DNA from: Alphaproteobacteria bacterium
GTDB taxonomy: Bacteria; Pseudomonadota; Alphaproteobacteria; Micavibrionales; Micavibrionaceae
Direction of reading: 5' to 3'
NCBI GenBank assembly: GCA_018000295.1
Contig: JAGNKE010000005.1
Location: 62,001-126,000 of the forward strand
DNA: 64,000 bases
Made by a program: the position numbers and the translations under genes. This document shows positions 29,668-61,792 of the stretch, piece by piece (positions within the stretch are counted from its first letter, which is position 1; each line of letters starts with the position of its first letter). The notes beneath the pieces are model-generated. The model made no database searches. It saw only the letters and a list, made by a program, of their open reading frames with translations, and was not told where the DNA came from.

Positions 29668-30090
29668 TCACTGAACGGCATGTTTCTTCTTATGATCGCG
29701 GATGTCTTCCCGGTGGTCGCGAAGATCTTCCTTCCGGTCGGCGATCTGCTCCTTTTTATCGAGAATATCTTCGCGCTCATCCAGAACATCTTCCCGCGCA
29801 TCGCGGATATCCTCAAGCTCGTCCTTTTTCCCGCCGTCATGCTGAGCATCAATCACATCCTCTCGGGCATCGCGGATATCTTCTTTTTTATCTGCAATTT
29901 GCTCTTTCTTGTCGCGGATATCTTCCCGATGATCCCGAATATCTTCGCGGTGGTCGCGGAGATCCTCGGCTTTATCATGGATCGGCGGCCGGACCTTAAG
30001 CCCGGGCTTGGGGGCATCGGCAGAGGCGGGGGTCACCGCGCCACTGAAAAAAACAAGCGCCAGAGCGCAAACACAGGCAAGTAACTTCAT
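29668..30090 (-). CDS. Exported heptad-repeat protein (DIRDxRE repeats)
   Basis: A 140-residue protein with a signal peptide (LLACVCALALVFFSGAVTPASA, cleaved after ASA near residue 24). From residue 43 to about 135 it consists of 7-residue units of the type D-[ILV]-x-D-x-[RK]-E. Examples are DLRDHRE, DIRDHRE, DIRDKKE, QIADKKE and DIRDARE. Highly charged, it would form a long single helix or coiled coil in the periplasm. I know of no assigned function. A canonical AGAGG ribosome binding site and a TTAA-N7-TTAA overlap just before the start. A clear terminator follows, so it is a single-gene unit. Confidence 0.85.
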   Translation of the reverse strand: MKLLACVCALALVFFSGAVTPASADAPKPGLKVRPPIHDKAEDLRDHREDIRDHREDIRDKKEQIADKKEDIRDAREDVIDAQHDGGKKDELEDIRDAREDVLDEREDILDKKEQIADRKEDLRDHREDIRDHKKKHAVQ

Positions 30091-33796: not shown

Positions 33797-34396
33797 CTAG
33801 CGTCTCGAAAAGAGAGGCTTTCTGAAACGGTCGATTTCAAATTGTATATCTTCCAGACTATCCGGTATAGGCATAGGCAGGGTAAGATCGGGAGGAGACT
33901 TAACGAGATACGGGATGGCAAAATTAAATCTTTCGACAAGTTTTGGATCAACACTCAGCTTTCCAACCTTCGCTTCAGCCAGAATCAAGGAACCAGATTT
34001 TTCGTCCTTGGCAAACATACAGACAAAAGGCTCCAAACGGTAAGAGCCAAAAGAGTCAATATGAGTAAACCAAATTCGAACGCCCCCATTCCTAATAGTA
34101 CTGACTTCACTCAGCAAAATAGTATCAGGAAATGTAACATTCAACTCGATAAAGGTCTTGCAGATGCCGTAAGGAAGTCCGCCTTTAAAGGGGGCAAAAA
34201 GAAAATAGAAAAGATAAAATACCAAACAAAAACCGACAAACTTGGCAATATTTTTATACTGCTTTTTCTTTTTCTCGGTCTTTTTTTCCTTTAACTTATC
34301 TGACAAGGAGACAGCTTGCCCAAGAGCAGTATCCTCAAAAGCGGTCTGTTGAGCTATAGCCTGAGCCTGTTTGATATCCTTGATAATTTCACTCAT
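33797..34396 (-). CDS. Hypothetical bitopic membrane protein linked to icmB
   Basis: A 199-residue protein with a charged cytosolic N-terminus (Lys-rich KEKKTEKKKKQYK) and one membrane helix (FVGFCLVFYLFYFLFAPF, about residues 52-69). A periplasmic domain of about 125 residues, probably beta-rich, follows. I do not recognise the family. It overlaps the end of icmB by 4 bases and so is translationally coupled to the secretion operon. The topology resembles small inner-membrane Dot/Icm subunits, so it may be a lineage-specific component. Confidence 0.75.
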   Translation of the reverse strand: MSEIIKDIKQAQAIAQQTAFEDTALGQAVSLSDKLKEKKTEKKKKQYKNIAKFVGFCLVFYLFYFLFAPFKGGLPYGICKTFIELNVTFPDTILLSEVSTIRNGGVRIWFTHIDSFGSYRLEPFVCMFAKDEKSGSLILAEAKVGKLSVDPKLVERFNFAIPYLVKSPPDLTLPMPIPDSLEDIQFEIDRFRKPLFSRR

Positions 34397-37300
34397 CTAT
34401 CTTTCAGGCTTATACGCTTCCCTTCTTCTCTCTCTTGAATTTTTTTGCTTTCCTCAACAAGTTCATTAACAATTTCCTCGATAACGGCGCTGATCATGGC
34501 CTGCCGCGAATCTCCAGTTTCGCTGTTTGCAAGAACACGCCTTCTAATTTCATTGCGAGCACTACCGCCCGGGTAGGCAAAAGAGAGCATTTGCCGCGCA
34601 CGCGAAGCGCCAAGATAAGTGTAAAGCCGATTTCGAATAGCCACGTCCTCAGCAGAGGTGTTCAACGACCACAACTCAATCGGCCCAAGAGTATTATAAA
34701 GATGCTGCTCGTAACGGCCCGATGTCGTTCCCAGAACCAAAAGACACGGAGCTCCGATAGACTTAGGACCCGTTAGACGGTAACGTATAACGTGCCGTGC
34801 GGTATTAGAGAGACCGAACCTCTGGACAACATCGTCAACAGCCTTATCGGAAATCGCTGTACCGAGAACCCAGACACCCGTAGCCAGATCGACCATATCC
34901 TTGTCGAAGTCATCAAGAAGCTGGGAGGTGAGAACAATCTGAACGCCGCGCTTCCGGCCCTCACGAACGTCACGTATGACCTGCGCACGAACTGAATTCG
35001 ATTTGCTCGTTCTATGAAACTCGTCAAAGTTGAGTCGCTTTGGCGTTTCAGCGACTTCTTGCAGTCTCAGGGAGTGGAACTGCTGGAACTTCTCAGGAAT
35101 ATGCTGAATGGACTCCTGACTCATCCACCAAGAGCGCACCAGCGCATGACGGGCCAGCATATACATGATCGAAGTCTGACGATCCGCCGCCTCATCGCCT
35201 TGAGGGGCGACGTCCATCAAGTCCAGCGAACACAGGCGGGTATCGGCGATATCGAACTGGGTAACAGAAGAAAGGATCGGATACTCGCGGATGGCCGAAG
35301 TAACCATACGCTCAAAAGCGCTAAGGACAGTCTCTGCACTAAATCCAACGGAAGTTTCTTCAAGCAGGTTTCTGATCTGCGGCCGTCTCGAGGCGGTAAT
35401 AGAGTCATTGAGAGTCGGAACGGCATGACGCTGTGCAACGTTGGCCAAATGAAATTGTTCCAGTTCGAAGAGTTTGTCAACGATATCCCACCAGAACGGA
35501 TCAGTGGGCAGATGGATATTATACTTGTTGATGGCCGCGTCAATGTCGGCTTCCAAGCGGGGCAGATAAGGCCTTGCCTCGGCGTTCGCAGCCGAATCAT
35601 CTCTCCACCGGAACATCTCATCAACCACCAAGCCGCAAAGCTGCTGCATCCCGTCATAAGGTTTGTCATATCCAGGAGGTGTGGTTAAAAGGGTAAGCAA
35701 TTCAACAAGATAAGAACGCTCGTCAGGAAGAGGGTAACGACAGCCTAACTGCGTATCGAACGGGTTGATGGCGTACTGGTGAGCCATTTGTAGCCTGAAG
35801 TAGGAGGCTTCATGATGGCGGGCCAAAGGCAAAGCCTCTTTGATCAGGGAGACAAGACCGGAAGACGATGGCCCAATATCAACAACTGCGACATAAGGTA
35901 GCTTCGAAAGCCCAGGAGAGATACAAGTGCCTAAATTGAGAGAGTTAAGCAATACGGACTTTCCCGCCCCAGGTTGGGCGAAGATCAAATCAAACCACGT
36001 CGTTGTAAGATTCGTTCCAGTTTGATAAGGCCAAAGTTTACCATCAGGAGTTCTGAAGATAATGGCTCCCTCATCGAAGGGACTCGAAGGCCGCTGCCAA
36101 GGCAACAGCTTCATAATCTCAATCATCGGGGCAATCCCGGTTGGGGCGGTGCCACCGCAATGAATACCCATGGCGGACGACATAACACAATCAAGCGGGT
36201 CACCGGAAAATTCGCTCACCTGAGCGTAGCCCCAACTTTCAATAGCCTGAAGGAGTACTGACAGACGGTCCAGGATTTTATCTTTTTCCTCGATCACACA
36301 CCAAGTGGCAAAGGAAAGCCTGAATTTTACGACAGGCTCCTTACGCGCCAGAGCCATCAGACTTTCCAGAGAGTACTTAATTTGTTTGTTTGAACCATTG
36401 GTAGGCCCAAGTATCGTGGCAGCAAAAGCCCGAAAGGCCAGTGCGGATGCGCCGCCACCCTCGATCAGAAAAGATATCCTGAAGGGAATATCTGCTTCAA
36501 CCAAACGGTTCATAAGAATGGGAAAAGCCGTCGAATCCATCGGGCCCAAAGTCATATCGCCCCCGGCCCATAAAAGGTTGCCTATCCTGACCACTGACTT
36601 ACCAAGAACGCGAGCGTCTGCAGCAGTAATCTGGTTAGGAAGGGTGGGCCACAGGATATCCGACATATCAACAGTGCTTTGCGGCGCACGCGGAGGGATC
36701 GGATCACCAGGAAGACAGGCCCGCCAGTTCTCATTGGCACGATCAGGAAACATATTATTACGAACGGCCGTGATGGCATCGTGAACTTCCATAAGTTTGC
36801 ATCCGATGCCCATCTCATCCAATCCCGACAAAATAGCGCTCACAAAACTTTTATGTCGGGTTCGTAGAGGTTCCATAACTCCGAGCGGATACTGGGCGTG
36901 CCCAGCCGGAAGCCAGTTTTTAGCTTCATCTTTTACGCCCTGCACAGCTCTCTTAACTTCGCTCTTGCTGAGGATTAATGGCCTGGTCCACACAACAAAA
37001 TAACACTCCTCATGCGTACAAAAACGCTCAAGGTTCTTGATCCTTTCCTCCAAAAGATCATCAACTTCCAATCCAATATTACTCGCAGAGGTACGACTGG
37101 GTTTGACATAGTTTTCCAGCATCTGTCGAACCCTGCCAGGATCTCTAACAAAATAGACCTGCATGGCATGACCCTGTCGGTCGAAACGCGAGCCAATCTT
37201 GATAGTTGAAGAGCTGACAATTGTGTTATACTCATCATCACCGATTATCTGCCTGCTACCTTCAATTTTAATGTAAGAAAGCAAAGAACCGTCAGAGGAA

Positions 37301-37404
37301 ACGATGGTCGTCTCATTTTCCATCGTTTCAAGTCGGATAAACGACGAAACTGAAAACTTTAGGCCTTTTTGAAAAGGCAAAAGCATTTTATCAAGTAACT
37401 TCAT
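34393..37404 (-). CDS. icmB: IcmB/DotO-type secretion ATPase (TraU/VirB4-like)
   Basis: The large cytosolic ATPase that powers type IVB secretion or conjugation. At 1003 residues it is close to Legionella DotO (about 1000). The P-loop FAQPGAGKS lies near residue 475, LNFDEFHRTSKS is a Walker-B-like motif near residue 800, and QIVLTSQLLDDFD follows as in VirB4-type enzymes. I chose ATG 37404 (MKLLDKMLLPFQKG) over a TTG nine codons earlier. It follows icmJ by 115 bases and is the penultimate gene of the icmL-to-icmB run, in Legionella order. Confidence 0.95.
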   Translation of the reverse strand: MKLLDKMLLPFQKGLKFSVSSFIRLETMENETTIVSSDGSLLSYIKIEGSRQIIGDDEYNTIVSSSTIKIGSRFDRQGHAMQVYFVRDPGRVRQMLENYVKPSRTSASNIGLEVDDLLEERIKNLERFCTHEECYFVVWTRPLILSKSEVKRAVQGVKDEAKNWLPAGHAQYPLGVMEPLRTRHKSFVSAILSGLDEMGIGCKLMEVHDAITAVRNNMFPDRANENWRACLPGDPIPPRAPQSTVDMSDILWPTLPNQITAADARVLGKSVVRIGNLLWAGGDMTLGPMDSTAFPILMNRLVEADIPFRISFLIEGGGASALAFRAFAATILGPTNGSNKQIKYSLESLMALARKEPVVKFRLSFATWCVIEEKDKILDRLSVLLQAIESWGYAQVSEFSGDPLDCVMSSAMGIHCGGTAPTGIAPMIEIMKLLPWQRPSSPFDEGAIIFRTPDGKLWPYQTGTNLTTTWFDLIFAQPGAGKSVLLNSLNLGTCISPGLSKLPYVAVVDIGPSSSGLVSLIKEALPLARHHEASYFRLQMAHQYAINPFDTQLGCRYPLPDERSYLVELLTLLTTPPGYDKPYDGMQQLCGLVVDEMFRWRDDSAANAEARPYLPRLEADIDAAINKYNIHLPTDPFWWDIVDKLFELEQFHLANVAQRHAVPTLNDSITASRRPQIRNLLEETSVGFSAETVLSAFERMVTSAIREYPILSSVTQFDIADTRLCSLDLMDVAPQGDEAADRQTSIMYMLARHALVRSWWMSQESIQHIPEKFQQFHSLRLQEVAETPKRLNFDEFHRTSKSNSVRAQVIRDVREGRKRGVQIVLTSQLLDDFDKDMVDLATGVWVLGTAISDKAVDDVVQRFGLSNTARHVIRYRLTGPKSIGAPCLLVLGTTSGRYEQHLYNTLGPIELWSLNTSAEDVAIRNRLYTYLGASRARQMLSFAYPGGSARNEIRRRVLANSETGDSRQAMISAVIEEIVNELVEESKKIQEREEGKRISLKDR

Positions 37405-37519
37405 GTGCGGCTGTGAATGTGTTCTTCCCAAGAGTACTCTTGCCTGCTCATATTACACAAACAAAATAAGAAGGAAAGGCTTAAGAAAAAACAGAGCCCG
37501 ATTCGTAAGGTTAATAAAA

Positions 37520-38233
37520 TTAACTGCTATGAATGCTGTTATAAATACTGAACCATTGCTGTGGAGGCTTGCCGCCGAAAGGCCCGTCCTTTGAACGCCA
37601 ATAGGCAAGAATTTGAGGAAACTGATTAAATTCAAGATCTGCTTCCTTAATAATACGGCGATCAAGTGGAAAAAGCTTGACACCCTCAAGCTTCTGGGCG
37701 CGGATACCGTAGTGATGGTCGCTTAGATAATCCTTCAAAACCGTTGCGAGGGTATAAGCGTCATCAGTTCCAATTCTCTTACGAATAGGATCCCTTCTTT
37801 TCATAAGTCCATCCAGAGCTTTTCGGGCAGCCTCTGCGATCGGTCCCTGAGAAATTCGAGCAACATAAATAGCGCGGGCCATATGATGGAGATCAGCTTG
37901 ATCAATCTCAGGTAGCCACAACAAAACACCCGACTTCATAACTCCGACTTGATCTAGGTTAAAGCACTGGTGACAAAAAATACACACCGTGGCGAGGTTG
38001 CCCTCACTGATATCCGCCACGTTACCATTAACCTGGATGACTTCCTGATATTTCTTAGACTGGAACCCGCAGCACCTGCAGGAAAAACCATCGCGTTCGA
38101 ATATTGTTTGCTTAAGGTCTTTCGATACAGTCTCTCTAGCAGAAGAGGAGCCGGAATCTCCGGCTCCCTCCTTTTTCTTTTTTGACCTTCCGGTAAACTT
38201 GGAAAGCCCCAAAGTGATCGGTATACGATCCAC
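37520..38233 (-). CDS. icmJ: IcmJ/DotN-like protein with HNH-type zinc fold
   Basis: In Legionella DotN (IcmJ) is a small cytosolic part of the type IV coupling complex that binds zinc. Here 237 residues contain IFERDGFSCRCCGFQSKKYQEV, then CIFCHQCF, giving a C-x2-C ... C-x2-C(x2)C metal site with an HNH-like layout. The segment matches the recalled Legionella pattern CQFCGFQA...NLVTACCFCAQCF and the following VGVM-x-SGVLLWLPE. The position between icmD and icmB is conserved. The N-terminus has an extra Lys/Ser-rich linker. It lies 14 bases after icmD. Confidence 0.88.
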   Translation of the reverse strand: MDRIPITLGLSKFTGRSKKKKEGAGDSGSSSARETVSKDLKQTIFERDGFSCRCCGFQSKKYQEVIQVNGNVADISEGNLATVCIFCHQCFNLDQVGVMKSGVLLWLPEIDQADLHHMARAIYVARISQGPIAEAARKALDGLMKRRDPIRKRIGTDDAYTLATVLKDYLSDHHYGIRAQKLEGVKLFPLDRRIIKEADLEFNQFPQILAYWRSKDGPFGGKPPQQWFSIYNSIHSS

Positions 38234-38775: not shown

Positions 38776-38790
38776 TTAAGGAACTATTAA
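38776..38790. promoter_or_regulatory. Candidate CtrA box upstream of icmD
   Basis: A perfect TTAA-GGAACTA-TTAA overlaps the stop codon of the 562-residue gene and lies in the AT-rich 128-base gap before icmD. Confidence 0.35.
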
Positions 38791-40475
38791 GCGAAGGTTA
38801 CGCCAAAGGCTGTAATTCCTATTGTTTGCTGGACAGCGTTAAGAAGAGGCCCGAGATTGACCGCCATAGCGCCGCCGATGATATGAGTCATTGACGACAT
38901 AAGAGAAGCTTGCTGGTTGCCCTCGGCAACCTGTCTCATGATAAACAGACCACGGACGAAACTGATCGAGCCCACAATAATCATAAAACGGAGGACGGCG
39001 CTGACGACATGGTAAACGGCGTCGGTCTCTGCAGCAGCCATACCGGCGGTGTAAGTTAAAGTAGCGAAAGTAGCCGTCTGCGGGTCTCCGAACAAAGTCG
39101 AAGAAAAGGCGCGCATGATAACGTTCGCAGAAATAAGGATTCCCCCAATCGTAAAAGTAGACACGGTGCCCATACCACCCGGCCCTCTCGGGCCGTCTTG
39201 TGCAGTTTTGACGAGCCTAGAGATGCCGATCATGATAAAAATCATGCCAGCAACAAAACAGAAGAAGTTAAGAACAACCTGGCTGGGGCCAAGAACCTCA
39301 CCCATGAAACAGGCCATGACCATATCAAGGGAATTAGTGCCCACGCCGCAAGCATTGGCGCCGAAAAGAAGAGAAAGATCCCCCTCGTACCCAGTAGTAG
39401 TGCCAAGTCCGGGTAAGCGATAGGCATTTAACGGAGAAAGATCGGGTAGAAAAGTCATTTGCAGAGCAGAAACTACAGTGGGGAGAGAGAAAAAAGCGCC
39501 ACCCGCAATTAACCTGGAAACCCCATCCCACAAAGAAGTCTGCTGGGGGTTTAAAACATGGTTCTTGATTTTTACCAAAGCCCAGACCCCGAAGACTAAG
39601 CCAAGCATATAAGCAATTCCCGACAAAAATGCAGCTATACCTGAGGAATTTAGCCATGCCGCGCAAATGACCTCACCGACCCTGGTTGGAGCCGTCGCGG
39701 TCAGGGGGTTACAGGCTATACCTGTAGAAAGCGTCACATAAAGCCAATCGTCAGACGCAAAGGTAAACGATGCAACGTTAAGTAAGCCCGCCGTAACCTC
39801 CCAAACACCAAGCCCCCCTCCGCCTACAGTGTTCCACATAGCTTCAAAAACCGCAGGCAGACCGAACATGGCACCGCCTATAATCAGGTTAATGACACCC
39901 TCCTTGAGAGAAACCCGGGCGGGATCCTCCACATGATCCTTAAGCTTAAGAATACCGATAACCCCCATGAGCAGACCAAGAAGGTATGCAACAGCGGTAA
40001 TAAGACCGGGCAGCAGTTGGGTTTCGGCGACGATATAGGACAAGAGAGAGTTGAAATTCATACCGCCAAGGCCTGTAAAAAGCCCCAAAAGTGCGGAGGC
40101 ACTGTTAAAGAAAGTGACAGTATCAACACCAACCCAACCACCACCGCCGTAAATAGTTTCCGTCATGGCCTCGTAAACGATAGGCAGGGAAAAAAGTGCA
40201 CCGCCAGCGATATAACGGACAACGGGAACGCGAAAAGGGGTCTGATTCGGATTGTTGACGTGCTCAATAGTCTTCATGACCGCCTGGTAGGCGATATAAA
40301 GCCCGAGAGTATAGGAAAAGGCCGTAATCAGTCCCGGAATAAGGGACGCTGAGGTAGTCATATTCTCCGCGATATCGTCAACACCCTGCGCCCAAGCCAA
40401 ACCGGATAGAACCGCAGACGCAAGAAAAGCTGAAATACCAGCAAAACAACGCGAAAAAAGGCTATTTCTCATCAT
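38787..40475 (-). CDS. Multi-module IcmC/IcmD-like membrane protein
   Basis: A 562-residue, very hydrophobic protein with an N-terminal signal (AFLASAVLSGLAWA). It carries the IcmD-type module (two helices around H-V-x-N/D-P-x-Q-T/S-x-L) near residues 69-98 (IEHVNNPNQTP), 176-205 (LKDHVEDPARVS) and 303-332 (IKNHVLNPQQTS). Degenerate copies lie near 420-450 (VKTAQDGPRG) and 505-540 (MRQVAEGNQQAS). Legionella has separate small icmC and icmD genes here. This gene sits in the icmC position and looks like serial duplication and fusion. Extra-module loops carry Cys residues and would face the periplasm. It is probably an inner-membrane component. Confidence 0.85.
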   Translation of the reverse strand: MMRNSLFSRCFAGISAFLASAVLSGLAWAQGVDDIAENMTTSASLIPGLITAFSYTLGLYIAYQAVMKTIEHVNNPNQTPFRVPVVRYIAGGALFSLPIVYEAMTETIYGGGGWVGVDTVTFFNSASALLGLFTGLGGMNFNSLLSYIVAETQLLPGLITAVAYLLGLLMGVIGILKLKDHVEDPARVSLKEGVINLIIGGAMFGLPAVFEAMWNTVGGGGLGVWEVTAGLLNVASFTFASDDWLYVTLSTGIACNPLTATAPTRVGEVICAAWLNSSGIAAFLSGIAYMLGLVFGVWALVKIKNHVLNPQQTSLWDGVSRLIAGGAFFSLPTVVSALQMTFLPDLSPLNAYRLPGLGTTTGYEGDLSLLFGANACGVGTNSLDMVMACFMGEVLGPSQVVLNFFCFVAGMIFIMIGISRLVKTAQDGPRGPGGMGTVSTFTIGGILISANVIMRAFSSTLFGDPQTATFATLTYTAGMAAAETDAVYHVVSAVLRFMIIVGSISFVRGLFIMRQVAEGNQQASLMSSMTHIIGGAMAVNLGPLLNAVQQTIGITAFGVTFA

Positions 40476-40634: not shown

Positions 40635-42110
40635 TTACTGGCTTAGGCTCCCCATCGTACCTTTGATAACCCACTTACCGTTAACTTTGGTAATGGATTT
40701 AATTTTGCCGAAACCCGCAACGCGGTCCCCAATTTCAACAGACTTCACATCTCCAGTACGGCTGTCATAAAGAACGGCACTCCCGGGTTGTGCGGACCTT
40801 AACTTCCAAGAGGAAGCAGGGGCGGTTTTCTTGGAAACGACAACGGGTTTCTGGGGCGATGTTTCGACTTTTTTATCGGGGACAACTGGGTTCTGTGCCA
40901 GCATTTCCGGCTTATCGACGCGAACATCCACGGCCTCAGGTTGAACTCCGCTGTTCGAGGACGTCCCACCAGTGCTATCCTTCGCGGGAACCAAAGACAC
41001 AGAAGGAGAAGGCGAAGCAAGAGGCTCAGAAGCTGATATCTGATCTGGTTGTTCGTTCGAATCGCCCAAAGCGGAACTCTCGGCGAGATCACCATCGCTG
41101 ACCATTTCCAAACCTTCCTTGCTGGAGCTTTCTGAAACGGCCATAGGAGAATCATCTGAATTTTCGGGTTCCTCCAAAGAAGACAAGTCGTTCGGTTGAC
41201 TCAAAATACCGCCTTTCTCAGCTGTCAGGTCAGCTGAAGCGGCCAAAGAAGAAGAGGCCGCGTCAAGGCTGCCGTCCAAAGTTTCGGCAGATTCCAGAAC
41301 CTCATCGACCTGTTTGCCGAGATCTAACTCACTCAAAGAATCAGACTCGGAAGCAATAACAACAGTATTCGCTGCCTCCGGGGTCTGTAAATCAACCGCC
41401 TGCCCGTCAGAAAGGCCGACGTCAGGTAAAGACTCACTTTCGGAGCCTGTCGAGGCAATAGTCCCAGGGGCCACTTCGGGAGCAAGAACCTGACCCGAAG
41501 GATCCTGAGCCAGCATTCCATCTTTTTCAGCCAGAGGAGCAATCTCTCGGATCTCCCCGTCAGCCATTTCTAAAGGCTGCAAATCTGAAGTTGAAACATC
41601 AGCACCAGGAAATGGAGTCAACACACCATCCCCATCGCTGTCGCCAGTCAAGGAGGTTGAATCAGCCGACACGCCGGCGGCATCACTTTCATTGGACGCA
41701 GGGCCTTCTTCCTTGGCAGATTCCAGATCCAGCTCTTGCGGAGCAGAGCTATCCTGCGGCATAGGGGGCAAATTCTGTAGCTCTGAAGATGTTAACGAGT
41801 CGGACGATGAAGGTATCGCTTCCTCTATTACAGACGAGCTCGCAGAAACGGCAGAAACACTTTTTTCAGTCTCCAATCCAGGGATAAGCTGGTTCTGGTA
41901 GGCGTACCAAGAGCCCCCACCCAAAAGTGAAATCAAAACCAAGCCAAATAACAATCCACCAGAAGACTTCTTTTTAGCGCCGCGCAAAACGTCTTCAGGC
42001 GAGGAAGCGCCCTCCTCAGAAGCTACAGCACTATCAGTCTCCTCACCCCACTGATCTTCATCAATAGTATCGAGATCGTCGAAATTTTCGACCTTTCCCT
42101 TGCCTGTCAT
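40635..42110 (-). CDS. icmG: IcmG/DotF-like inner-membrane protein
   Basis: A 491-residue bitopic protein. It has an acidic cytosolic N-terminus, one membrane helix near residues 52-70 (GGLLFGLVLISLLGGGSWYAY), then a very long Ser/Glu/Ala-rich disordered or helical stalk of about 350 residues. A small C-terminal domain (AVLYDSRTG, then VEIGDRVAGFGKIKSI) has the pattern of the PilP/TraP/IcmG C-terminal domain. In Legionella DotF helps assemble the core complex and recruits substrates. The stalk is far longer than in Legionella DotF (about 270 residues in all). The assignment rests on synteny plus the C-terminal domain. Confidence 0.75.
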   Translation of the reverse strand: MTGKGKVENFDDLDTIDEDQWGEETDSAVASEEGASSPEDVLRGAKKKSSGGLLFGLVLISLLGGGSWYAYQNQLIPGLETEKSVSAVSASSSVIEEAIPSSSDSLTSSELQNLPPMPQDSSAPQELDLESAKEEGPASNESDAAGVSADSTSLTGDSDGDGVLTPFPGADVSTSDLQPLEMADGEIREIAPLAEKDGMLAQDPSGQVLAPEVAPGTIASTGSESESLPDVGLSDGQAVDLQTPEAANTVVIASESDSLSELDLGKQVDEVLESAETLDGSLDAASSSLAASADLTAEKGGILSQPNDLSSLEEPENSDDSPMAVSESSSKEGLEMVSDGDLAESSALGDSNEQPDQISASEPLASPSPSVSLVPAKDSTGGTSSNSGVQPEAVDVRVDKPEMLAQNPVVPDKKVETSPQKPVVVSKKTAPASSWKLRSAQPGSAVLYDSRTGDVKSVEIGDRVAGFGKIKSITKVNGKWVIKGTMGSLSQ

Positions 42111-42189: not shown

Positions 42190-43455
42190 CTAGGTATCGT
42201 CATTCTCAGAAGTCACAGCCTCGGTAAAAAGAATACCGATAGGCGTACCAGCATGGATCTTGACGAGAACCTGAACATCATCATTGATCTCTTCAATAAT
42301 ATCTCTGACTTCCGCACCAGCCTCTTTCACACCAAGAGCAACCTCCTCTTCTGTGTTTAAGTCTTGCTGTGTATCAGTCGTAGTCGTACCGCTCGATCCC
42401 GTTTCGATAACGATGCTCGTGGCGTCAGATTGTGCGATGGCTTCGGAAAAGCCCTCGATAAAAGCCGCCGCCGCAGGCAAAAGAATTCTCTGTAAATAAC
42501 GGTGATCGACTTCCGTGGCCATACCAGGCAAAGAAGTGTCAGGATCCAGAGCTATAGCAGAAATTCTGCTGTCACGCCCGTCGACGACAATTCTATCGAA
42601 CTGGAGGGTAAGGTAGTCGTTCTGAACAGTGAACGAGCCGATCATTTTCGAACCTCTCAAAGGGCCGGAAACGAGAAGTACGAGAACGGGACCAGGTATG
42701 TCAGAGTTAGCCTCAAGTAAAAGCTGACCATATTCAATCTCTCCGGCGGGAATAATAATCTCGGGGTCGACCTCTTCTTCCTCTCCGTCGAACTCTCCAT
42801 TCCCCTCAGCGTCACCTTTAGGGGCACCTCCACCTCCGCCGGCTCCTTCAGCTTCAACTTTATAAATGCGCTTGTACTGCATACGAATACGCTCACCTTG
42901 GCGGGAAAGAACATTCTGCATCTGCTTGGCCATGGAGTCAGCCATCTGCTTCATGGCTTCATTCTGCTGTTCAGAATCAAGAACAGTAACCGGCTCTACA
43001 TCCTCAGAGTCGCCAGTATCCCTAAGAACGCGCTCTTCCTGCAGACGTCTCCACCGATGCAGAGGATCCTCCGTCTCCTCCTGCTCCTCAGGAAGCTGAA
43101 GACGGTCGGAGGGGGTTTCAACAGGGACAGGAATGGTACTTTCTCCAGTCTTTATAGCCTTCTCAAAATCGGCCTCGTTAGCTTCTTCAACTGCCTCGAC
43201 ATAAGCAGGCGAAGCCTCGGCACCGCCCGGCGGGGAGTTCACCTGTGACGGCGCAGGAACCATAGACTTCTTAACCTCGTCAGGTTTAGCCCCAAAGAAG
43301 TAAAGAGCGCCAATAAAAAGTGCAACGACACCAAGAACGACCCCGACCTTTACGACCGGACTGTTCCGCCACATATCTCCAAGCGTGTTCTTCTGTACAA
43401 ACTCACCAAACCCCTCTTCAGAGCCAATGATTTCCTCGTCAAGATCGTCATTCAT
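42190..43455 (-). CDS. icmE: IcmE/DotG (TraO/VirB10-like) core-complex protein
   Basis: DotG spans the envelope and forms the central channel of the type IVB core with DotH and DotF. The 421 residues show a membrane helix near residues 35-54, a Pro/Glu-rich linker and a C-terminal VirB10-like domain: PAGEIEYGQLLLEANSDIPG, then VLVSGPLRGSKMIGSF and the terminal VHAGTPIGILF-like segment. It lacks the long pentapeptide-repeat region of Legionella DotG (over 1000 residues), so it resembles IncI TraO. It overlaps icmK by 8 bases. Confidence 0.93.
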   Translation of the reverse strand: MNDDLDEEIIGSEEGFGEFVQKNTLGDMWRNSPVVKVGVVLGVVALFIGALYFFGAKPDEVKKSMVPAPSQVNSPPGGAEASPAYVEAVEEANEADFEKAIKTGESTIPVPVETPSDRLQLPEEQEETEDPLHRWRRLQEERVLRDTGDSEDVEPVTVLDSEQQNEAMKQMADSMAKQMQNVLSRQGERIRMQYKRIYKVEAEGAGGGGGAPKGDAEGNGEFDGEEEEVDPEIIIPAGEIEYGQLLLEANSDIPGPVLVLLVSGPLRGSKMIGSFTVQNDYLTLQFDRIVVDGRDSRISAIALDPDTSLPGMATEVDHRYLQRILLPAAAAFIEGFSEAIAQSDATSIVIETGSSGTTTTDTQQDLNTEEEVALGVKEAGAEVRDIIEEINDDVQVLVKIHAGTPIGILFTEAVTSENDDT

Positions 43456-44674
43456 CTAGCAACTCCTCACGCTCAGAAAGATAAGCACGAACCATACGCC
43501 CTTTATCGGACAACAGAAGGACAGGGGCATCGGCAAGCGCATAAACTCTAGTCCCATCAGCGGACGACACTGAACTCTCCCAGCCGGGCGACAAAAGCGT
43601 CAAAGGCGTCCGCACGTAAGTATAGTTATTATACTTAAAAGCGCTTGTACGACCGTCTACGCCGGTAACGGAAAGCTTCACAGCTTCCTTAGGCATAACC
43701 CCGGACAAAGCCGCTGACATATCAACATCTCCGGCCGCCAAAGTCACACCGGGTTGCATGAGGGGAGCCTTGGCAAAGGGCCCGTTACCAGGAATAACAG
43801 CATCAAAACGGTAATAGACAATATCCCTGTTGGTCTCCAGAGTGAAAATAATAGGGGTATCAAGACCAACCATCTTCATGGACATATTGCCGTGACCGAA
43901 ATCGTTCTGTGCTGAAACCCGCACCATATTCACAAGATCAGCCTTCCCGTCACTCTGAATTGCAAAGTTCCCAACCCACGAAATATCCTCGATAGGCCAA
44001 GGCGACCCGGAGCTGTCGACCATACTGATACTGGTAACATACCCGAAGGCTAGCTTTATGGTAAGAGGGGGACTCCCAGGATCAAGGGAGATGTTCTGAA
44101 CAACACTCTCAGGCCTGGGATAAGGATGAACAGGAGTCTCGGTAGACTCTACAGTCCTGTCCAAGCGCTCAAGCAGGGTTCGAATTTCATTTGGCCGCAA
44201 AGGAAGAATTCTGTTAAGAGCGGCTTGAAAAGCACCCTTTCTGAAATCATCCTCAAGCTGCTCGGAGGTTTTCTGAAATTCATCAAGACCCTCATCTTCC
44301 TCAAATTCAAAAGGATCCTTCTCAGGATTTTCAACATCGAGAGCTGGCATAGACTCAAGCACACTCTCATCAGGAGCATCATTCTTATCATTATCCTGGC
44401 CGGCAACCTCTGCTGACTCGCCACCGCCGACTCCATCTTCCAGATCGGAAAGGCCGCCATCTTCAAGGGCCCCATCACCAGAAGAATCGTCGTCGACGGC
44501 TGGAGAACCTAATTCCCCTGCGGCATCCTCGACCTCAGAGGTTGGAGATGCGCCCCCATCCTCCTGCGCGTGAGCCGGAAACGCAACGGTTGCAGAAACA
44601 AAGAGCGCACCAGCAGACAAGCAACTGGCGACCCCAACTAATAAGAAATTAAAATTCGATGTTTTATTTTTCAT
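43448..44674 (-). CDS. icmK: IcmK/DotH (TraN-like) outer-membrane core protein
   Basis: DotH forms the outer-membrane ring of the type IVB core with DotC, DotD and DotG. I chose ATG 44674 (408 residues) because it puts a signal peptide (LLVGVASCLSAGALFVSATVAFPAHA) at the N-terminus; the longer frame adds 39 residues. A Gly/Asp/Glu-rich region to about residue 110 is followed by the family core: FGYVTSISMVDSSGSPWPI, ISWVGNFAIQ, and the terminal YVRTPLTLLSPGWESSVSSA and ADAPVLLLSDKGRMVRA. The 206-base gap to icmL may hold an internal promoter. Confidence 0.94.
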   Translation of the reverse strand: MKNKTSNFNFLLVGVASCLSAGALFVSATVAFPAHAQEDGGASPTSEVEDAAGELGSPAVDDDSSGDGALEDGGLSDLEDGVGGGESAEVAGQDNDKNDAPDESVLESMPALDVENPEKDPFEFEEDEGLDEFQKTSEQLEDDFRKGAFQAALNRILPLRPNEIRTLLERLDRTVESTETPVHPYPRPESVVQNISLDPGSPPLTIKLAFGYVTSISMVDSSGSPWPIEDISWVGNFAIQSDGKADLVNMVRVSAQNDFGHGNMSMKMVGLDTPIIFTLETNRDIVYYRFDAVIPGNGPFAKAPLMQPGVTLAAGDVDMSAALSGVMPKEAVKLSVTGVDGRTSAFKYNNYTYVRTPLTLLSPGWESSVSSADGTRVYALADAPVLLLSDKGRMVRAYLSEREELLDE

Positions 44675-44880
44675 GACGAAAGATCTAACCCAGAAACTCA
44701 AAAACTTCGTTAAACGATACAATGGAAAATTCTGATTGTCACGTACTATCAACACCGTATCACAAATAATATTAAAACAAAACAACAACAACGCTCACAG
44801 AAGATAAGAAAAAACAAAACTTAAGGCATGGTCCATGCTGCAGCTAAGGAAGCAGGGGGGGGGCGGTGCCCAAAAGCAGG

Positions 44881-45585
44881 TTAGCGGGGAACCGCGACCC
44901 ATTGCTCAATACCCACTCCATTGGGGCTTTCAAGGCGGGGGACGCGAACAACAACAACCGTTACGAGTAGTCCCGTATTCTGTGTGCGGGCTCCGGATTG
45001 ATAAGTTAAAATCAGTGGAACCTGAACCACCCACTGGTAGCGGCCGGCAACCAGTCCTTCAGATTCAAGAATGGGGGCGCCTTTGGGGGCGGCGGTAAGA
45101 ACCTGCTGATTGACCTCCACCATTTCAATAATTCTTGATCGTTGAAGTGCTTGTGTAAAGCTCTCCCATCCGCGCTTGGTAAAATTACGAGACGCCTCTT
45201 GGAGTCTCCGGCGGTAATCGCTAAATCCGAAAGTCATGACCTCGGTGGAGGCTTGGGCAACCCAAGACATGAGCGCTGGAGCGCTAAGGTTGGGTTGATT
45301 AAGGGGGACCATAGGAACAAGGCGACCGTCCTCTGTTGTCGCAAAATATCGATGCTCGGGCTGGTGGGCGTAGATGACATAATACATCGCACCAATTAGG
45401 CCTAAGATAATAAGGCTCTGTATGAGCGTAAGCTTAAGAAGGCTCCGGTAGCCGTCCCTGTAAAACTCATTCCGTATGACCACGGTACCCAACCCGGAGG
45501 TGTCGGCCTCAGGCTCAGCATCAGCCCCTTCCTCAGTTGTTTGCGGCTCCGAGGGGGGGTGTTTTTTAGTGATTTTGCCTAGCAT
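44881..45585 (-). CDS. icmL: IcmL/DotI (TraM-like) inner-membrane protein
   Basis: DotI forms inner-membrane rings in the type IVB apparatus and has a periplasmic VirB8-like domain. The 234 residues comprise a polar N-terminus, one membrane helix near residues 52-71 (LTLIQSLIILGLIGAMYYVIY), and the periplasmic domain with PLNQPNLSAPALMSWVAQA and FSDYRRRLQEASRNFT. The C-terminal YQWVVQVPLILTYQSGARTQ strand pair is typical. It is the first gene of the minus-strand block and diverges from the five-paralogue cluster. Confidence 0.93.
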   Translation of the reverse strand: MLGKITKKHPPSEPQTTEEGADAEPEADTSGLGTVVIRNEFYRDGYRSLLKLTLIQSLIILGLIGAMYYVIYAHQPEHRYFATTEDGRLVPMVPLNQPNLSAPALMSWVAQASTEVMTFGFSDYRRRLQEASRNFTKRGWESFTQALQRSRIIEMVEVNQQVLTAAPKGAPILESEGLVAGRYQWVVQVPLILTYQSGARTQNTGLLVTVVVVRVPRLESPNGVGIEQWVAVPR

Positions 45586-45852
45586 AACATTCTATTCTGG
45601 GAGTTAACTGCAAACCCATTATCTTTTTTTGGAGAAAAAAAATCAATCCCAAGTATCAATTATTAATGATATTTATACTTTTGGTTAAAAATCGTGCCTT
45701 TACCAAAACCGTTATGCTAGTATAACCTCTAAAGGAAGGCGGGCGCTTACGCTTGTATCTTTGTGCGTTTTGTGGGCAACTCAGGATCAGTCCATATTAC
45801 ATTGCCCGTTGTTTTCATTTGCCAGTTTGGTTATATTACTAAAGACCTCATT
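45586..45852. promoter_or_regulatory. Divergent promoter region between icmL and the paralogue array
   Basis: These 267 AT-rich bases separate two outward-facing transcription units and must carry both promoters. For the rightward one, TTTACC (45699-45704) and TATAAC (45721-45726) are spaced by 16 bases and look like a sigma-70 promoter. No perfect CtrA box or inverted repeat was found. Confidence 0.45.
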
Positions 45853-47334
45853 ATGACGAAGATGCTAACGATCCGTAACCTTAAAAACTCCAGTATTATT
45901 GGGCGTATGATTTTTCACATCTTCGCCCCTCTCGCGATTGCTGTCGTAATTACGCTTCTTTTAACCCACTCGGCTTATGCAGCTTGTGGATGTTTGGTTG
46001 GCACGTGTTCGTCAGCGGATTGCTCGGCCGCAAGCAGTCAGCTCGATCAGTATCATGACGACATTGAGCAAAACACTCAGGATGAGTTTGATGACGATCT
46101 AGAGGCCTTTGAGGACTGGCTTGTAGAGCAGTTTTTTGAAGGGGAGGTGGTGCCGGCAATGGCTGACATGACCACCCAGATGAATGCCGTTGCGATGCAG
46201 CAAATGAATATCATTGGCGCTTTCATGGACGCTGACATTCAAATGGATACGCAAAGACTTTTCCAGCAACTTCAGGCGGAGGCTCACAAGGATTACCGCC
46301 CCTCCGATGATTTTTGCTGGTTTGGGACAAACGTCAAGAGCATGGCGCACTCGGAAATCAAAGGAAATCACAATGCTTTGGCGTTATCGGCCATGAGCAT
46401 TAAGCGACAGATTGGAAACGCAAATCTAAACTCTTCTGCTGGCGTTGAGCAGGATTTGAGGGGAAGATGGGGGCAGTTTGTCGATACTTACTGTGATCCT
46501 AAAGACAACAATTGGCTGGTTCCTTCTGCGCTGCCTCCTGAAATAGACGCCACTGATAATCCGCCGGGCAGTTTTTACGGCCAGCTGTCCGGGCTTGAGT
46601 ACGCCTGTGATCGTGATGGCGATTTCCCCGGACCTGATGCGAATCGTGGGGGGCCCAAGGGCGCGACAGATCCATGGCGCACAAACATAGATATTGACTA
46701 TACCCGTTTGGTGGAAGCACCAAGGACGCTCGATATAGATATTTCAAATGCCACAATGACCGATGACGAGGAAGATGTCTGGGCTCTTTCAAGAAATATT
46801 TTTGGTCACGAGGTTCTTACAAGAGATCTTTCTCGGCAAAAGACCCAGTCGAATAATGGTAAGAAGCTTTATCTGGCGGTAAGAAGCATTGCCGCAAAGC
46901 GCAGTGTCGCGCAATATTCTTTCGACAGTATAATAGGTCTGAAAACGGCCGGTACGGGATCTAATTTGGCTGCCGGTTCTCAGGTCCGCGAGTTTCTTGG
47001 GTCGATCATTAAGGAGATTATGCCTCTATCCACGCCTGACGAAGAAATATACGAATATATGGGAGAAGAGCCGAGCTATTATTCCCAATTGGAAATCATG
47101 AGCAAAAAACTATATCAGAATCCAGATTTTTACGCCAATCTCTATGATACACCGGCTAACATCAAGCGTAAACACGTGGCCATGCAGGCTATTGAGGTGA
47201 TGCTTGACAGGGCGATTTATGAAAGTCAGCTAAGAAAAGAGATGGTGGTCTCAGTTCTCCTTTCCAGTAAAATAAGGGCGGCCCAAAGAGAGGCCAATAA
47301 GCAGGTGGTAAACGCAACCGGGGGGCAAAAATGA
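45853..47334 (+). CDS. Exported protein of the five-member AHKDY family, copy 1
   Basis: A 493-residue protein of a family I do not recognise. The signal peptide ends near HSAYA, and the mature N-terminus is Cys-rich (CGCLVGTCSSADC). An acidic helix follows, then the shared core: AVAMQQMNIIGAFMDADIQM, AEAHKDYRPS (A at residue 144), FCWFGTNVKSMAHSE, QIGNANLN and TYCDPKDNNW. The C-terminal block PSYYSQLEIMSKKLYQNPDF then YANLYDTPANIKRK starts near residue 407. Probably periplasmic or surface. The longer frame from 45763 would precede the signal peptide by 30 residues, so I chose ATG 45853. The next gene overlaps by ATGA. Confidence 0.85.
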   Translation: MTKMLTIRNLKNSSIIGRMIFHIFAPLAIAVVITLLLTHSAYAACGCLVGTCSSADCSAASSQLDQYHDDIEQNTQDEFDDDLEAFEDWLVEQFFEGEVVPAMADMTTQMNAVAMQQMNIIGAFMDADIQMDTQRLFQQLQAEAHKDYRPSDDFCWFGTNVKSMAHSEIKGNHNALALSAMSIKRQIGNANLNSSAGVEQDLRGRWGQFVDTYCDPKDNNWLVPSALPPEIDATDNPPGSFYGQLSGLEYACDRDGDFPGPDANRGGPKGATDPWRTNIDIDYTRLVEAPRTLDIDISNATMTDDEEDVWALSRNIFGHEVLTRDLSRQKTQSNNGKKLYLAVRSIAAKRSVAQYSFDSIIGLKTAGTGSNLAAGSQVREFLGSIIKEIMPLSTPDEEIYEYMGEEPSYYSQLEIMSKKLYQNPDFYANLYDTPANIKRKHVAMQAIEVMLDRAIYESQLRKEMVVSVLLSSKIRAAQREANKQVVNATGGQK

Positions 47335-48794
47335 CCGGAGAGGGCAAACCTCAGTCAGAGGCAGGCGGCTTTGCTCGCCCCAAAACGACACTGGGGTGGG
47401 GTCTGAAACTGTCGCCTTTTGTAAAAAAGTTTCTTCTGGTATTTATCATGATTTCGGTTTTGGCAGGGTCAACCCTGACAATGAAAAGCCGGGAATCCGA
47501 AGCCCTTTGTATTCCTTGCTGGATGTGCGGCCCTATAGATTGCATCATTGTGCCCATTTTGGTGGAGATTATCGCTGAGATTTTTGAGCTCATCATTGAA
47601 GAAAACATCGAAGACCATATCAACAATGAAATAAACTGGATCGTCGAGGATTTCTTCGAGGATTTCTGGGTTATTGGTTTGGCGGAAATGACAGAGTTTC
47701 TCTCCGCCATGGGGATGTATCAGATGGAAATTGTAGGCGCGATGCTTGATGCAAAGCATCAGCTTGAGACCCAACGTCTGTTCTGGCAGTTGCACGCCGA
47801 AGCTCACAAGGATTACCACCCCAGCGATGAAATTTGCTGGATGGGGACGGCAGCCAGAAGTATGGCTGCTTCGGAAGCTCGCGGCCTTTTTAATAAGCGG
47901 GTATTGGCAGATTTTGGACTTGATCGGCAGCTTGGCAACGCAAATATGACCGGAGCCCAGTCTGTACAAAGAGACAAGGCTTCGCGATGGAGGCAGTTTG
48001 TAAGAACCTACTGCGATCCTAAGGATAATGACTGGGGGGGGCCAGGAACCGGTTTGGATTTGGCCTGTGATCATGACGGTCCCGGAGGGGCCGGAACGAC
48101 TGGGGCGACGAATCCGGCCAGAAAAAATATAGATATTGACTATGCGCGGTTAATTGACCAAAGGCGCACACTCGAAGTTAATTTTGAAGGCGCCACGGCC
48201 ATTCCACCCCCTGCGGACGAAGAGGATGTATTCGCTATGTCCGCCAATCTTTACGGGAACAGCGTCCTCTCGCGTAACCTGTCCCGTTTGAAACTAAGAA
48301 GCAAAAGTGGACAAAAATTATATTTGGATCTTCGCAGTGTCGCCGCAAAGCGAAGTGTGGCGCAGAATACGTTTAACTCGATTGTAGGGATGAAGTCTGC
48401 CGGAACATCGGATACATCCCTTGTTTCTGGTGGTCCACCCTTGACTCGGACCTTTTTAGCGGCGGCATTTAAAGAGCTGATGCCTCCGGCTACCCCTGAC
48501 TCAGAGATTTACGCCATTATTGGCGAGAACCCGAGCTACTATGCACAGTTGGAGGTTTTAGCAAAGAAGATATACCAGAATCCTGACTTCTACTCTGGTC
48601 TTTACGACAAGCCCGCTAACATTGCACGCAAGAGTACCGCCATGAAGGCAATAGACCTGATGCTTGATAGGGTCCTTTTTGAAAGCGAACTGAGACAGGA
48701 GATGATTCTTTCGGTTCTCCTCTCAAGCTATTCAAGGGACGATTTCAGGGCCCTTAACAACACCATAATCAACACACAAAAAGCGAGAGATTAA
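47331..48794 (+). CDS. Exported protein of the AHKDY family, copy 2
   Basis: A 487-residue second member. The signal/anchor helix KKFLLVFIMISVLAGSTL near residues 32-50 lies behind a longer cytosolic N-terminus. The mature N-terminus carries CIPCWMCGPIDC. The core follows: MEIVGAMLDAKHQLETQRL, AEAHKDYHPS (A at residue 158), ICWMGTAARSMAASE, QLGNANM and TYCDPKDNDW. The C-terminal GENPSYYAQLEVLAKKIYQN block is present. It is closest to copy 1; both have CDPKDN and an EEDV-xA-S-N-LYG-xSVLSR segment. It overlaps copy 1 by 4 bases, so expression is coupled. Function unknown. Confidence 0.85.
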   Translation: MTGEGKPQSEAGGFARPKTTLGWGLKLSPFVKKFLLVFIMISVLAGSTLTMKSRESEALCIPCWMCGPIDCIIVPILVEIIAEIFELIIEENIEDHINNEINWIVEDFFEDFWVIGLAEMTEFLSAMGMYQMEIVGAMLDAKHQLETQRLFWQLHAEAHKDYHPSDEICWMGTAARSMAASEARGLFNKRVLADFGLDRQLGNANMTGAQSVQRDKASRWRQFVRTYCDPKDNDWGGPGTGLDLACDHDGPGGAGTTGATNPARKNIDIDYARLIDQRRTLEVNFEGATAIPPPADEEDVFAMSANLYGNSVLSRNLSRLKLRSKSGQKLYLDLRSVAAKRSVAQNTFNSIVGMKSAGTSDTSLVSGGPPLTRTFLAAAFKELMPPATPDSEIYAIIGENPSYYAQLEVLAKKIYQNPDFYSGLYDKPANIARKSTAMKAIDLMLDRVLFESELRQEMILSVLLSSYSRDDFRALNNTIINTQKARD

Positions 48795-48816
48795 ACAGTT
48801 GAGATAATATGCTGTC

Positions 48817-50217: not shown

Positions 50218-50219
50218 TC

Positions 50220-51542: not shown

Positions 51543-51563
51543 CTTATCTCTAGGATGGTTGAC

Positions 51564-59262: not shown

Positions 59263-60423
59263 CTAACCTGATCCCGTGCTTGATGACAATAATAAATAAG
59301 CGCGGCGATCAATGAGCTTCGCCTCGAAAGCGATTTCAGCTGATTTCTGCATACTGCGGCCGTATTGATTGAGAATACGCTGGATCTCGTTGGACCACTT
59401 TGTAAAATGCATATCCATCAGCTTTTCACGTACATCGTCGGGAAACTGCATCCACTCCCGCACACCACAACGTCCGCCGCCGACTCGCGGCACAAGCGCC
59501 TGTGTGACAATTAGCCTAAGGGTTTCCATAAGAGCAACAGCGCGCTCCTCGCGCTCACTGATATCGTAGGTCGAAAGCAGACGCGAGACAGTGTTGGCCA
59601 CACCGAGAGTGTGCGTAGTGGTGTAGACCGCATGGCCCGTCTGCGCGGCTTCGATGGAGGCGTTGATCGTTTCGCGATCCCGGGATTCTCCCACAAGAAT
59701 CACTTCCGGTTTACGGCGCAGGGCGTTACGGATTCCATGGGCAAAACTCGGCAAATGTCGGGGTATTTCAGTCTGGGAAACGAGGGAGCGCGGACTGTGA
59801 ATGCTGTCGTAGACATATTCGATCGGCGCTTCGTATGTCAGCATTTTACCGCAGCCCTTAGGGCGTTCGAGCAACATACGGTTTCCTGCCGCCAGAAGCG
59901 TCGTCTTGCCGGAACCCGTCGGTCCTGTGATAATGACAATCCCCTGGCGCGGTGCCCAGGCATCGATGATTTCCCGCTCGATATTCAGATCGCGCATCGT
60001 CGGCGGTTCGCTGGGCAAGGCGCGCATGGTGATCTGCGCGGCATCGCGTCCGCGGGAGAGAACGGCGGTGATATTGACCCGGAAACGGATGCGGGTATAC
60101 CGATCGGGACGGATTTCATAAGAAACGTCAAGGTCTTTGGCTGAAGCAAGGCGGGCGCGAGCCTCTGGGCCATAGAGTTTTTGCAAAAAAATACCCATAT
60201 CGGCCGCGTCAACATCCCTGAAAGTCGCGGGATAGAGAACGCCATGTATCTCGTTATAAACGGGGCGGTCGCTCTGGATGGTGATATCTGAAGAGTTTTG
60301 TTTTACACACCAAAGGAGAAACTTGTCTATATGCTCCTCTGTAAACCTGTTGGGCTCATCCGGCCAGGTTTGCGCGAAACTGTCCTGCTTTTTTAGAAGG
60401 CTTACTGGTTTGCGGGCTTCCAC
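59263..60423 (-). CDS. dotB: DotB (TraJ-like) secretion ATPase
   Basis: DotB is the hexameric ATPase of type IVB secretion, related to PilT and VirB11. The 386 residues include GPTGSGKTTLL (Walker A), MLTYEAPIEYVYD (Asp box), VILVGESRDRET (Walker B) and TGHAVYTTTHT (His box). The N-terminal PAS-like domain (SDITIQSDRPVYNEIHGVLYP) is typical. The start overlaps the end of dotC by 22 bases. No membrane segment; cytosolic. Confidence 0.96.
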   Translation of the reverse strand: MEARKPVSLLKKQDSFAQTWPDEPNRFTEEHIDKFLLWCVKQNSSDITIQSDRPVYNEIHGVLYPATFRDVDAADMGIFLQKLYGPEARARLASAKDLDVSYEIRPDRYTRIRFRVNITAVLSRGRDAAQITMRALPSEPPTMRDLNIEREIIDAWAPRQGIVIITGPTGSGKTTLLAAGNRMLLERPKGCGKMLTYEAPIEYVYDSIHSPRSLVSQTEIPRHLPSFAHGIRNALRRKPEVILVGESRDRETINASIEAAQTGHAVYTTTHTLGVANTVSRLLSTYDISEREERAVALMETLRLIVTQALVPRVGGGRCGVREWMQFPDDVREKLMDMHFTKWSNEIQRILNQYGRSMQKSAEIAFEAKLIDRRAYLLLSSSTGSG

Positions 60424-61282: not shown

Positions 61283-61792
61283 TTATCCACCAAGTCCGGC
61301 ATTGGGAGCATAATAGATTTCAACCATGCGGCTCTTGGCGTCAACTCTGACATCGCCGCGCATACCCAGTTGCAGGCCGATATCGCGCAGCGTATCGACG
61401 ACGCGCTGGTTTTCAGCGTCAATCGAGACAACCACAGGGGTGGAGGGCTTGTTTCCGAGGACAAGGAAACCATATCCCGCACGATCCGCAAGTGTCTTGG
61501 CAATCGGTTCGATCGGCCCGACCCAGTTGACCGTGATCGCCCGTCCAAGTTCCGGCGGGACGTTATCGATCGGTGAAACGGTCGTCGCCGGGGTTCTGGC
61601 ACGCTCAACAGCCGCCAGAGTTTCCAAGGCGGTCGATGCCCGGTCCGCTGACTCGGCCAGCATGGCAGTGACCTTGTCCGGGGAGGCGACAAGCTGAGGA
61701 CTTCCGCCGCTGAAAGCAGCATCGGAGGACTCGCATCCTGTGACCAAAACCATACTGAATAAGAGCAAGAGAGAGAGCTGTTTACGTGACAT
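61283..61792 (-). CDS. dotD: DotD (TraH-like) outer-membrane lipoprotein
   Basis: DotD is a secretin-N-like lipoprotein of the outer-membrane ring. The 169 residues have a lipobox signal (MVLVTGCES, lipid Cys at residue 20), a helical linker and a C-terminal domain: VNWVGPIEPIAKTLADRAGYG then VVDTLRDIGLQLGMR, similar to the peptide-binding N0/N1 fold. It heads the dotD-dotC-dotB-icmT-tcpQ run; the 200-base AT-rich gap upstream probably carries the promoter. Confidence 0.94.
   Translation of the reverse strand: MSRKQLSLLLLFSMVLVTGCESSDAAFSGGSPQLVASPDKVTAMLAESADRASTALETLAAVERARTPATTVSPIDNVPPELGRAITVNWVGPIEPIAKTLADRAGYGFLVLGNKPSTPVVVSIDAENQRVVDTLRDIGLQLGMRGDVRVDAKSRMVEIYYAPNAGLGG

Follow-up and report, generated by a model that had tools for sequence, protein, structure and literature searches.

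An enlarged IcmC/DotE-like protein with IcmD-type modules in a Dot/Icm-type secretion cluster of Micavibrionales

In a place that a small membrane protein occupies in other secretion systems, a type IV machine of the Micavibrionales has a single long chain. We analyzed a window of 64,000 nucleotides (the whole stretch of DNA, to which coordinates refer unless stated otherwise) and found a gene whose product appears to stack three IcmD-type hairpins in front of a two-module core of the IcmC/TraQ kind. The sequence-only reading had described five IcmC/IcmD modules; the number five stood, and the naming gave way to three IcmD-type modules plus one IcmC, which itself makes up two modules.

Results

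The long gene occupies the icmC slot of a Dot/Icm-type cluster

The genes of the cluster, all on the minus strand, are as follows.

61283..61792, minus strand, DotD-like lipoprotein gene (NF033882, 105 bits, cut-off 140)
59263..60423, minus strand, DotB-like ATPase gene (TIGR02524, 391 bits, cut-off 463)
44881..45585, minus strand, IcmL/DotI gene, over both cut-offs (PF11393, 222.7 bits, cut-off 27.7)
43448..44791, minus strand, IcmK/DotH-like gene (PF12293, 240 bits, cut-off 25)
42190..43455, minus strand, IcmE/DotG-like gene with a TrbI/VirB10 domain
40635..42110, minus strand, IcmG/DotF-like gene (NF038218, E 8.4e-5, under cut-off)
38787..40475, minus strand, multi-module IcmC/DotE-like gene, 562 aa, ten predicted transmembrane helices
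38248..38658, minus strand, IcmD/DotP-like gene, single module, 136 aa, predicted signal peptide
37520..38233, minus strand, IcmJ/DotN-like gene (NF038221, 92.5 bits, cut-off 100)
34393..37431, minus strand, ATPase in the IcmB/DotO/TraU position, 1012 aa, with a Walker A-like AQPGAGKS and only weak VirB4/TraC matches

Read along the minus strand, the order is icmL-K-E-G-C-D-J-B, with IcmB assigned by position, size, and motif. This is the icm gene order of Legionella, and the long gene therefore occupies the icmC slot. The cluster is a Dot/Icm-type T4BSS in a Micavibrionales genome, with the family signatures DotH and DotI in the window and DotA (TIGR04346, 243.6 bits, cut-off 100) on another contig. 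That contig holds three tandem DotA/TraY genes (127419-136628; frames of 998, 968, and 1102 aa with 30-43% identity), which rules out the multi-module protein as a DotA replacement. Among genomes of the order, three DotA copies are found in G045 and G046, the latter with a DotG-DotF-IcmC-IcmD-IcmJ-IcmB stretch, and f5 and f7 genomes mostly give one match.

Several further features were observed in and around the cluster. Between the icm and dotB-dotD genes lies a gene (57156-58817, minus strand) whose 553-aa product carries a TcpQ domain at its C-terminus (1.7e-12). Five tandem paralogues of a secreted family (45763-53357, plus strand; 523, 487, 466, 440, and 600 aa; 32-46% identity) adjoin icmL on the opposite strand, and the family is present in 127 of 142 genomes of the order; it gave no Pfam or NCBIfam match except a sub-threshold DUF2524, and with IcmX and VirB5 as candidate identities, profile, PDB sequence, and plasmid searches gave no match. 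A second, solitary icmD-like gene (131 aa, 9779-10174 of a fetched stretch of the same genome) sits away from the cluster, between what we take to be an rdgB-like and a hemW-like gene. Several genomes of genera g2, g3, g19, g22, and g39, both three- and five-module ones, have icmB and the next gene inverted relative to icmC, with no icmD or icmJ on the stretch. Elsewhere in the window are a 140-aa protein (29668-30090, minus strand) built of charged repeats of the DIRDHRED/DIRDAREDV type, its start resembling a signal peptide, and a 594-aa protein (7245-9029, plus strand) with C-terminal transmembrane helices and repeated CxxC motifs, presumably of the DnaJ zinc-finger type.

Five modules in one intact reading frame

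The frame at 38787-40475 begins with ATG, has no internal stops, and is intact. Its parts, all on the minus strand, are the following.

40386..40475, minus strand, predicted signal peptide, residues 1-30 (hydrophobic stretch 10-28, then AWA-Q)
40152..40376, minus strand, module M1, residues 34-108, IcmD-type hairpin with HVNNPNQTP loop
39822..40037, minus strand, module M2, residues 147-218, IcmD-type hairpin with HVEDPARVS loop
39639..39824, minus strand, M2-M3 linker, residues 218-279, predicted periplasmic, cysteines 255 and 271
39450..39671, minus strand, module M3, residues 269-342, IcmD-type hairpin with HVLNPQQTS loop
39090..39320, minus strand, module M4, residues 386-462, first half of the IcmC/TraQ core
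38817..39014, minus strand, module M5, residues 488-553, second half of the IcmC/TraQ core

The three clear copies named in the sequence-only reading carry their loop motifs as described, and the internal repeats are significant on self-alignment: pairwise scores are 162 for M1-M2, 140 for M2-M3, and 116 for M1-M3, against a top score of 55 in 500 plain and 500 hydrophobicity-preserving shuffles per pair, which rules out chance repeats for M1-M3. Each of the three also resembles the single-module IcmD correctly placed downstream (scores of 147-219; top shuffle 69). M3 is the counterpart of the single N-terminal module in three-module relatives. The two copies that had been called degenerate are insecure in pairwise comparison, M4-M5 scoring 33, a chance-level value equalled by 96 of 500 shuffles. 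Yet profile-profile comparison links both to a profile of N-terminal modules and IcmD, M4 at 92% (E 5.3e-7; reversed M4, E 0.066) and M5 at 91% (E 1e-6; reversed M5, E 0.071), with circularity only partly avoided, as this profile holds no M4 or M5 rows but its N-terminal modules were located by the iterated model. Compared directly, the M4 and M5 profiles gave no match (0.7%). Module counts rest on the iterated model, which absorbed M4 and M5 during iteration, making their E-values in that model circular. Modules start at residues 34, 147, 269, 386, and 488 by HMM, a spacing of 102-122 residues that falls within the predicted 90-130. The modules share only about 35-46% identity on average and the architecture recurs in 41 proteins, ruling out recent duplication or assembly error; an assembly artefact is ruled out because 40 other five-module orthologues are closed at the 5' end.

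A TraQ-like core preceded by IcmD-type hairpins

Residues 407-554 match the TraQ equivalog model NF033883 (40.7 bits, E 2.1e-10), under its cut-off of 80 bits, and the same model is matched by 61 of 65 relatives in an alignment of 40 five-module and 25 three-module proteins. By these matches the core is homologous to TraQ, and we do not class it as a TraQ equivalog. DUF6750 (PF20535) is matched by 42 of the 65 multi-module proteins (best 2.7e-14) and by 44 of 76 IcmD-like proteins (best 9.3e-8). The Pfam TrbC/VirB2 pilin model finds 28 of the 76 IcmD-like proteins at E 0.1 (best 8.8e-5) and a single one of the 65 multi-module proteins, at 0.025. For the window itself the scores are below the curated limits: against PF20535, 16.2 bits for IcmD and 11 bits for the multi-module protein (cut-off 27), and against TrbC, 12.6 bits for IcmD (cut-off 27.9). 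A DUF6750 protein is encoded directly after traQ on a conjugative plasmid. Taken alone, its sequence gave no match to the IcmD profile (E 0.074); on a Shinella plasmid, the gene following a TraQ-like gene does match that profile (82%, E 1e-5).

TraQ of plasmid pCTX-M3 has 176 aa and is reported to be similar to DotE/IcmC, and TraQ and TraR have been assigned to the VirB2 pilin family (PMC6112013). TraQ of IncI/IncM plasmids and DotE/IcmC of Legionella share the operon slot of the window protein and, through residues 407-554, its TraQ profile match, but they consist of the two-module core only, at about 176 aa, whereas the Micavibrionales protein has 562 aa with three extra hairpins ahead of the core. 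DotP/IcmD of Legionella and TraR (DUF6750) of IncI-type plasmids are likewise single hairpins with a signal peptide, encoded next to the IcmC/TraQ slot and linked by profile to DUF6750 and TrbC/VirB2; they are separate small proteins, whereas in Micavibrionales the hairpin is also built into IcmC. These comparisons indicate that M4 and M5 correspond to the canonical IcmC/TraQ and that M1-M3 are IcmD-type hairpins added at the N-terminus. Because IcmD and TraQ/TraR belong to a VirB2-pilin-like group, the multi-module protein would be a covalently linked row of VirB2-pilin-like hairpins. IcmD and each module have the pilin traits of a signal peptide, two helices, a basic cytoplasmic loop, and both ends outside, as judged from sequence and predicted structure. 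PDB sequence searches with both alignments returned designed coiled coils and chance matches alone.

Topology, linkers, and structure models

Across the 40 five-module rows, K+R+H amount to 8.9-22.9 per 100 residues in the five loops versus 0.3-5.3 in the periplasmic stretches. Because of this charge pattern, we predict ten helices with both ends outside and the loops in the cytoplasm. All 40 five-module rows have cysteines 255 and 271 in the M2-M3 linker, as do 36% of the 25 three-module rows. Only the signal peptide varies more than the linkers M1-M2, M2-M3, and M3-M4, whose identity to the window protein is 26-30%, compared with 37-78% in the hairpin parts. Extra modules could thus raise the number of variable segments, periplasmic or extracellular, in contact with prey, and DotA and a secreted family have multiplied as well. 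Surface diversification has been proposed for the amplified trwL (VirB2) and trwJ (VirB5) genes of the Bartonella Trw system, in which pilus components of a T4SS are likewise multiplied, but as tandem genes rather than fused modules and in a T4ASS. We consider this explanation improbable here, as variable linkers are common to most membrane proteins and the two linker cysteines are invariant.

AlphaFold2 modeled the whole chain with a mean pLDDT of 82.6 and a pTM of 0.82, and IcmD with 74.0 and 0.48. Cleavage of a precursor between modules into separate pilin-like subunits would suit the long linkers that join them, and mature VirB2-like subunits are about the size of one module. No internal signal peptide was seen, however, and the linkers contain conserved cysteines and predicted helices within a full-length model of pTM 0.82, so that a polyprotein is very improbable. 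Foldseek gave no PDB match at E 0.001 for either model; that no T4SS pilin was among the best 50 listed for IcmD shows nothing either way. In a second structural search (VIA, 988 chains), two TrwI/VirB6 chains of the R388 stalk came first (model residues 41-312; alignments of 213-216 residues at Z 9.4 and 9.3, with rmsd 4.7 and 4.6), ahead of a designed helical repeat (Z 8.6), and all three fall below the Z of about 13 under which the tool issues a warning for such helical folds. The archaeal conjugation pilin 8dfu ranked 11 (Z 6.6) among unrelated hairpins. The VirB6 match is a hint and no evidence for membership, and it may reflect a generic helical arrangement; VirB6 families were absent from the sequence-profile matches of the multi-module protein.

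The number of modules varies within the order

A match was found in 138 of 142 genomes of the order, and 130 rows gave a core; 12 genomes were left out (4 with no match, 8 with short matches alone). After removal of 5 of the 130 rows that were open at the 5' end, the remaining 125 proteins had three modules in 73 cases, four in 8, five in 41, and six in 3, where one five-module row (G023) is cut at the C-terminus and five rows (G017, G043, G097, G098, and G116) are counted as three-module although more than 200 residues precede the first recognized module. A sample of the class gave matches in 18 of 385 genomes. Of these, 4 belong to the order, and 13 of the other 14 yielded a core, with three modules in 7 and two in 6. 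The phylum sample yielded 3 matching genomes of 398. Dot/Icm-type systems have already been reported in seven marine Micavibrionales (PMC9418006), and the genome paper on Micavibrio aeruginosavorus ARL-13 reports that neither a type III nor a type IV system was evident (PMC3189940).

The suggestion that module number fixes a ring or a stoichiometry is not supported, with relatives ranging from 2 to 6. The same range bears on the idea that the chain is a covalent pilin oligomer, itself part of the conduit or pilus with one pilin position per module, so that five modules could equal one five-subunit layer. The modules are VirB2-group hairpins, pili are reported as five-start with five VirB2 units at the base (PMC9259494), and five is the commonest enlarged form, found in 41 of the 52 closed-end proteins of the order with more than three modules. 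But close relatives have 3, 4, 5, or 6 modules, with 3 the commonest, and five is thus not privileged; the last two modules are strongly different, and it is difficult to see how ten helices would be extracted from the membrane together. We regard an oligomer of this kind as unlikely.

Stepwise addition and apparent spread between lineages

In a tree of the core only (138 rows), five- and six-module rows form one group (support 95/45, or 97/85 without one fragmentary row), which adjoins four-module rows of genus g4 (94/60) and a three-module row (91/90). The tree implies 13 changes of module count; six modules arose three times, and four modules arose elsewhere too. Stepwise addition predicts that resemblance to IcmD rises toward the N-terminus. 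In the 28 five-module genomes with IcmD on the fetched stretch, M1 and M2 are each closer than M3 to the genome's own IcmD in 26 of 28, and M1 is closer than M2 in 18 of 28; mean identities are 50, 47, and 40% for M1, M2, and M3, and 58, 48, 43, and 38% along the six-module chains of two genomes. This gradient fits stepwise N-terminal addition from an IcmD-like source, though it would look the same if the outer modules had changed more slowly. The first proposal, in which a small membrane subunit was serially duplicated and fused, is supported, with IcmD-type modules stacked N-terminally on a two-module IcmC/TraQ core. A fusion that merely absorbed pre-existing separate icmD copies is unsupported, since one icmD is retained at most three-module loci (53 of 80) and at most five-module loci (30 of 42), on fetched stretches that are unequal in length and sometimes cut.

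For 43 of the 92 closed-end f1 rows (47 with usable IcmB, 4 left out as too gappy), the five-or-more-module rows form one clade in the core tree (98) and not in the IcmB tree of the same genomes. Forcing the IcmB tree to that clade lowers the log-likelihood by 111 (p-AU 7e-59), and the core rejects IcmB groupings for genus g3 (p 0.038) and for g18 + g24 + g38 (p 0.0013), in tests whose groups were chosen after the trees were seen. On the simplest reading of these trees, the five-module icmC seems to have spread between lineages without icmB; the alternative is convergent change of the core.

These wandering counts would also be compatible with neutral accretion, in which extra hairpins are tolerated and then hard to lose, with no new function. 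Module number and copy number of the neighboring secreted family correlate weakly over 92 genomes (rho 0.25, p 0.018) and show no link at the genus level (rho 0.16, p 0.33, 37 genera), which speaks for such drift; lockstep of the two can be dismissed. On the other hand, loop motif and charge pattern are kept in the added modules, and the five-module gene seems to have displaced shorter versions in other lineages, suggesting some advantage. Neutral accretion is in our judgment rather unlikely.

Discussion

Our tentative preference is for a model in which the gene encodes the IcmC/DotE (TraQ) component of a Dot/Icm-type system, enlarged by stepwise N-terminal addition of IcmD/DotP-type hairpins into a membrane-resident platform at the base of the conduit. 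The repeats, the relation to IcmD and TraQ, the charge pattern, the variable module number, and the cluster context were computed; the platform role, the disulfide, and contact with IcmD and DotA are what we infer. Once the signal peptide is removed, the chain would span the inner membrane with ten helices, its two ends in the periplasm and its five short basic loops in the cytoplasm; the variable linkers would be periplasmic, perhaps partly stapled by a disulfide. The tethered row of pilin-like hairpins would stay in the inner membrane at the conduit base, where it could gather or template free IcmD subunits through putative contacts near a pentameric DotA/IcmX channel. The icmG-C-D-J-B slot, the TraQ-like core, the IcmD-like N-terminal modules, the 2-3-4-5-6 ladder, and the separate IcmD gene kept downstream count in favor of a platform. 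Counted against it are the Foldseek search without a PDB match, a VirB6 match that is perhaps generic, and the unreached curated cut-offs of TraQ and Pfam.

The R388 stalk contains pentamers of VirB6 and of VirB5, and a role in recruiting VirB2 has been proposed for VirB6; conjugative pili are described as five-start assemblies with five VirB2 units at the base (PMC9259494). In Legionella, DotA-IcmX is reported in a review as a pentameric protochannel (PMC12981334). DotA, present in three copies, is the accepted VirB6 counterpart, so the multi-module protein need not fill the VirB6 part. We place no weight on five as a symmetry number because 3, 4, and 6 modules also occur. A bolder proposal, that a concatenated T4SS pilin builds or seeds a cell-contact conduit in a machine serving predation, one chain supplying several (often five) pilin positions to match five-fold stalk symmetry and IcmD modules tuning the number, strikes us as quite unlikely. 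The T4SS of an epibiotic Patescibacterium, a bacterium living on other bacteria, also has several VirB2-like units (six separate pilins, PMC12857230), but these are separate genes in an unrelated host lineage, in contrast to the one chain of Micavibrionales.

The use of VirB2-like pilins by Dot/Icm systems is unsettled, and a 2025 table has no VirB2 entry in its apparent Dot/Icm column (PMC12624023). Searches of an open-access library, which lacks most subscription journals, brought up no account of IcmC, TraQ, or VirB2-like proteins in fused or multi-module form. Nearly all genomes of the order, to which cultured bacterial predators belong, carry the system. A protein that is small elsewhere has here grown into a chain of up to six copies in relatives of Micavibrio, and this natural series of 2 to 6 linked pilin-like hairpins would make it possible to test the position of each module and the effect of tethering on the conduit, and so to ask why secretion machines would tether their parts.
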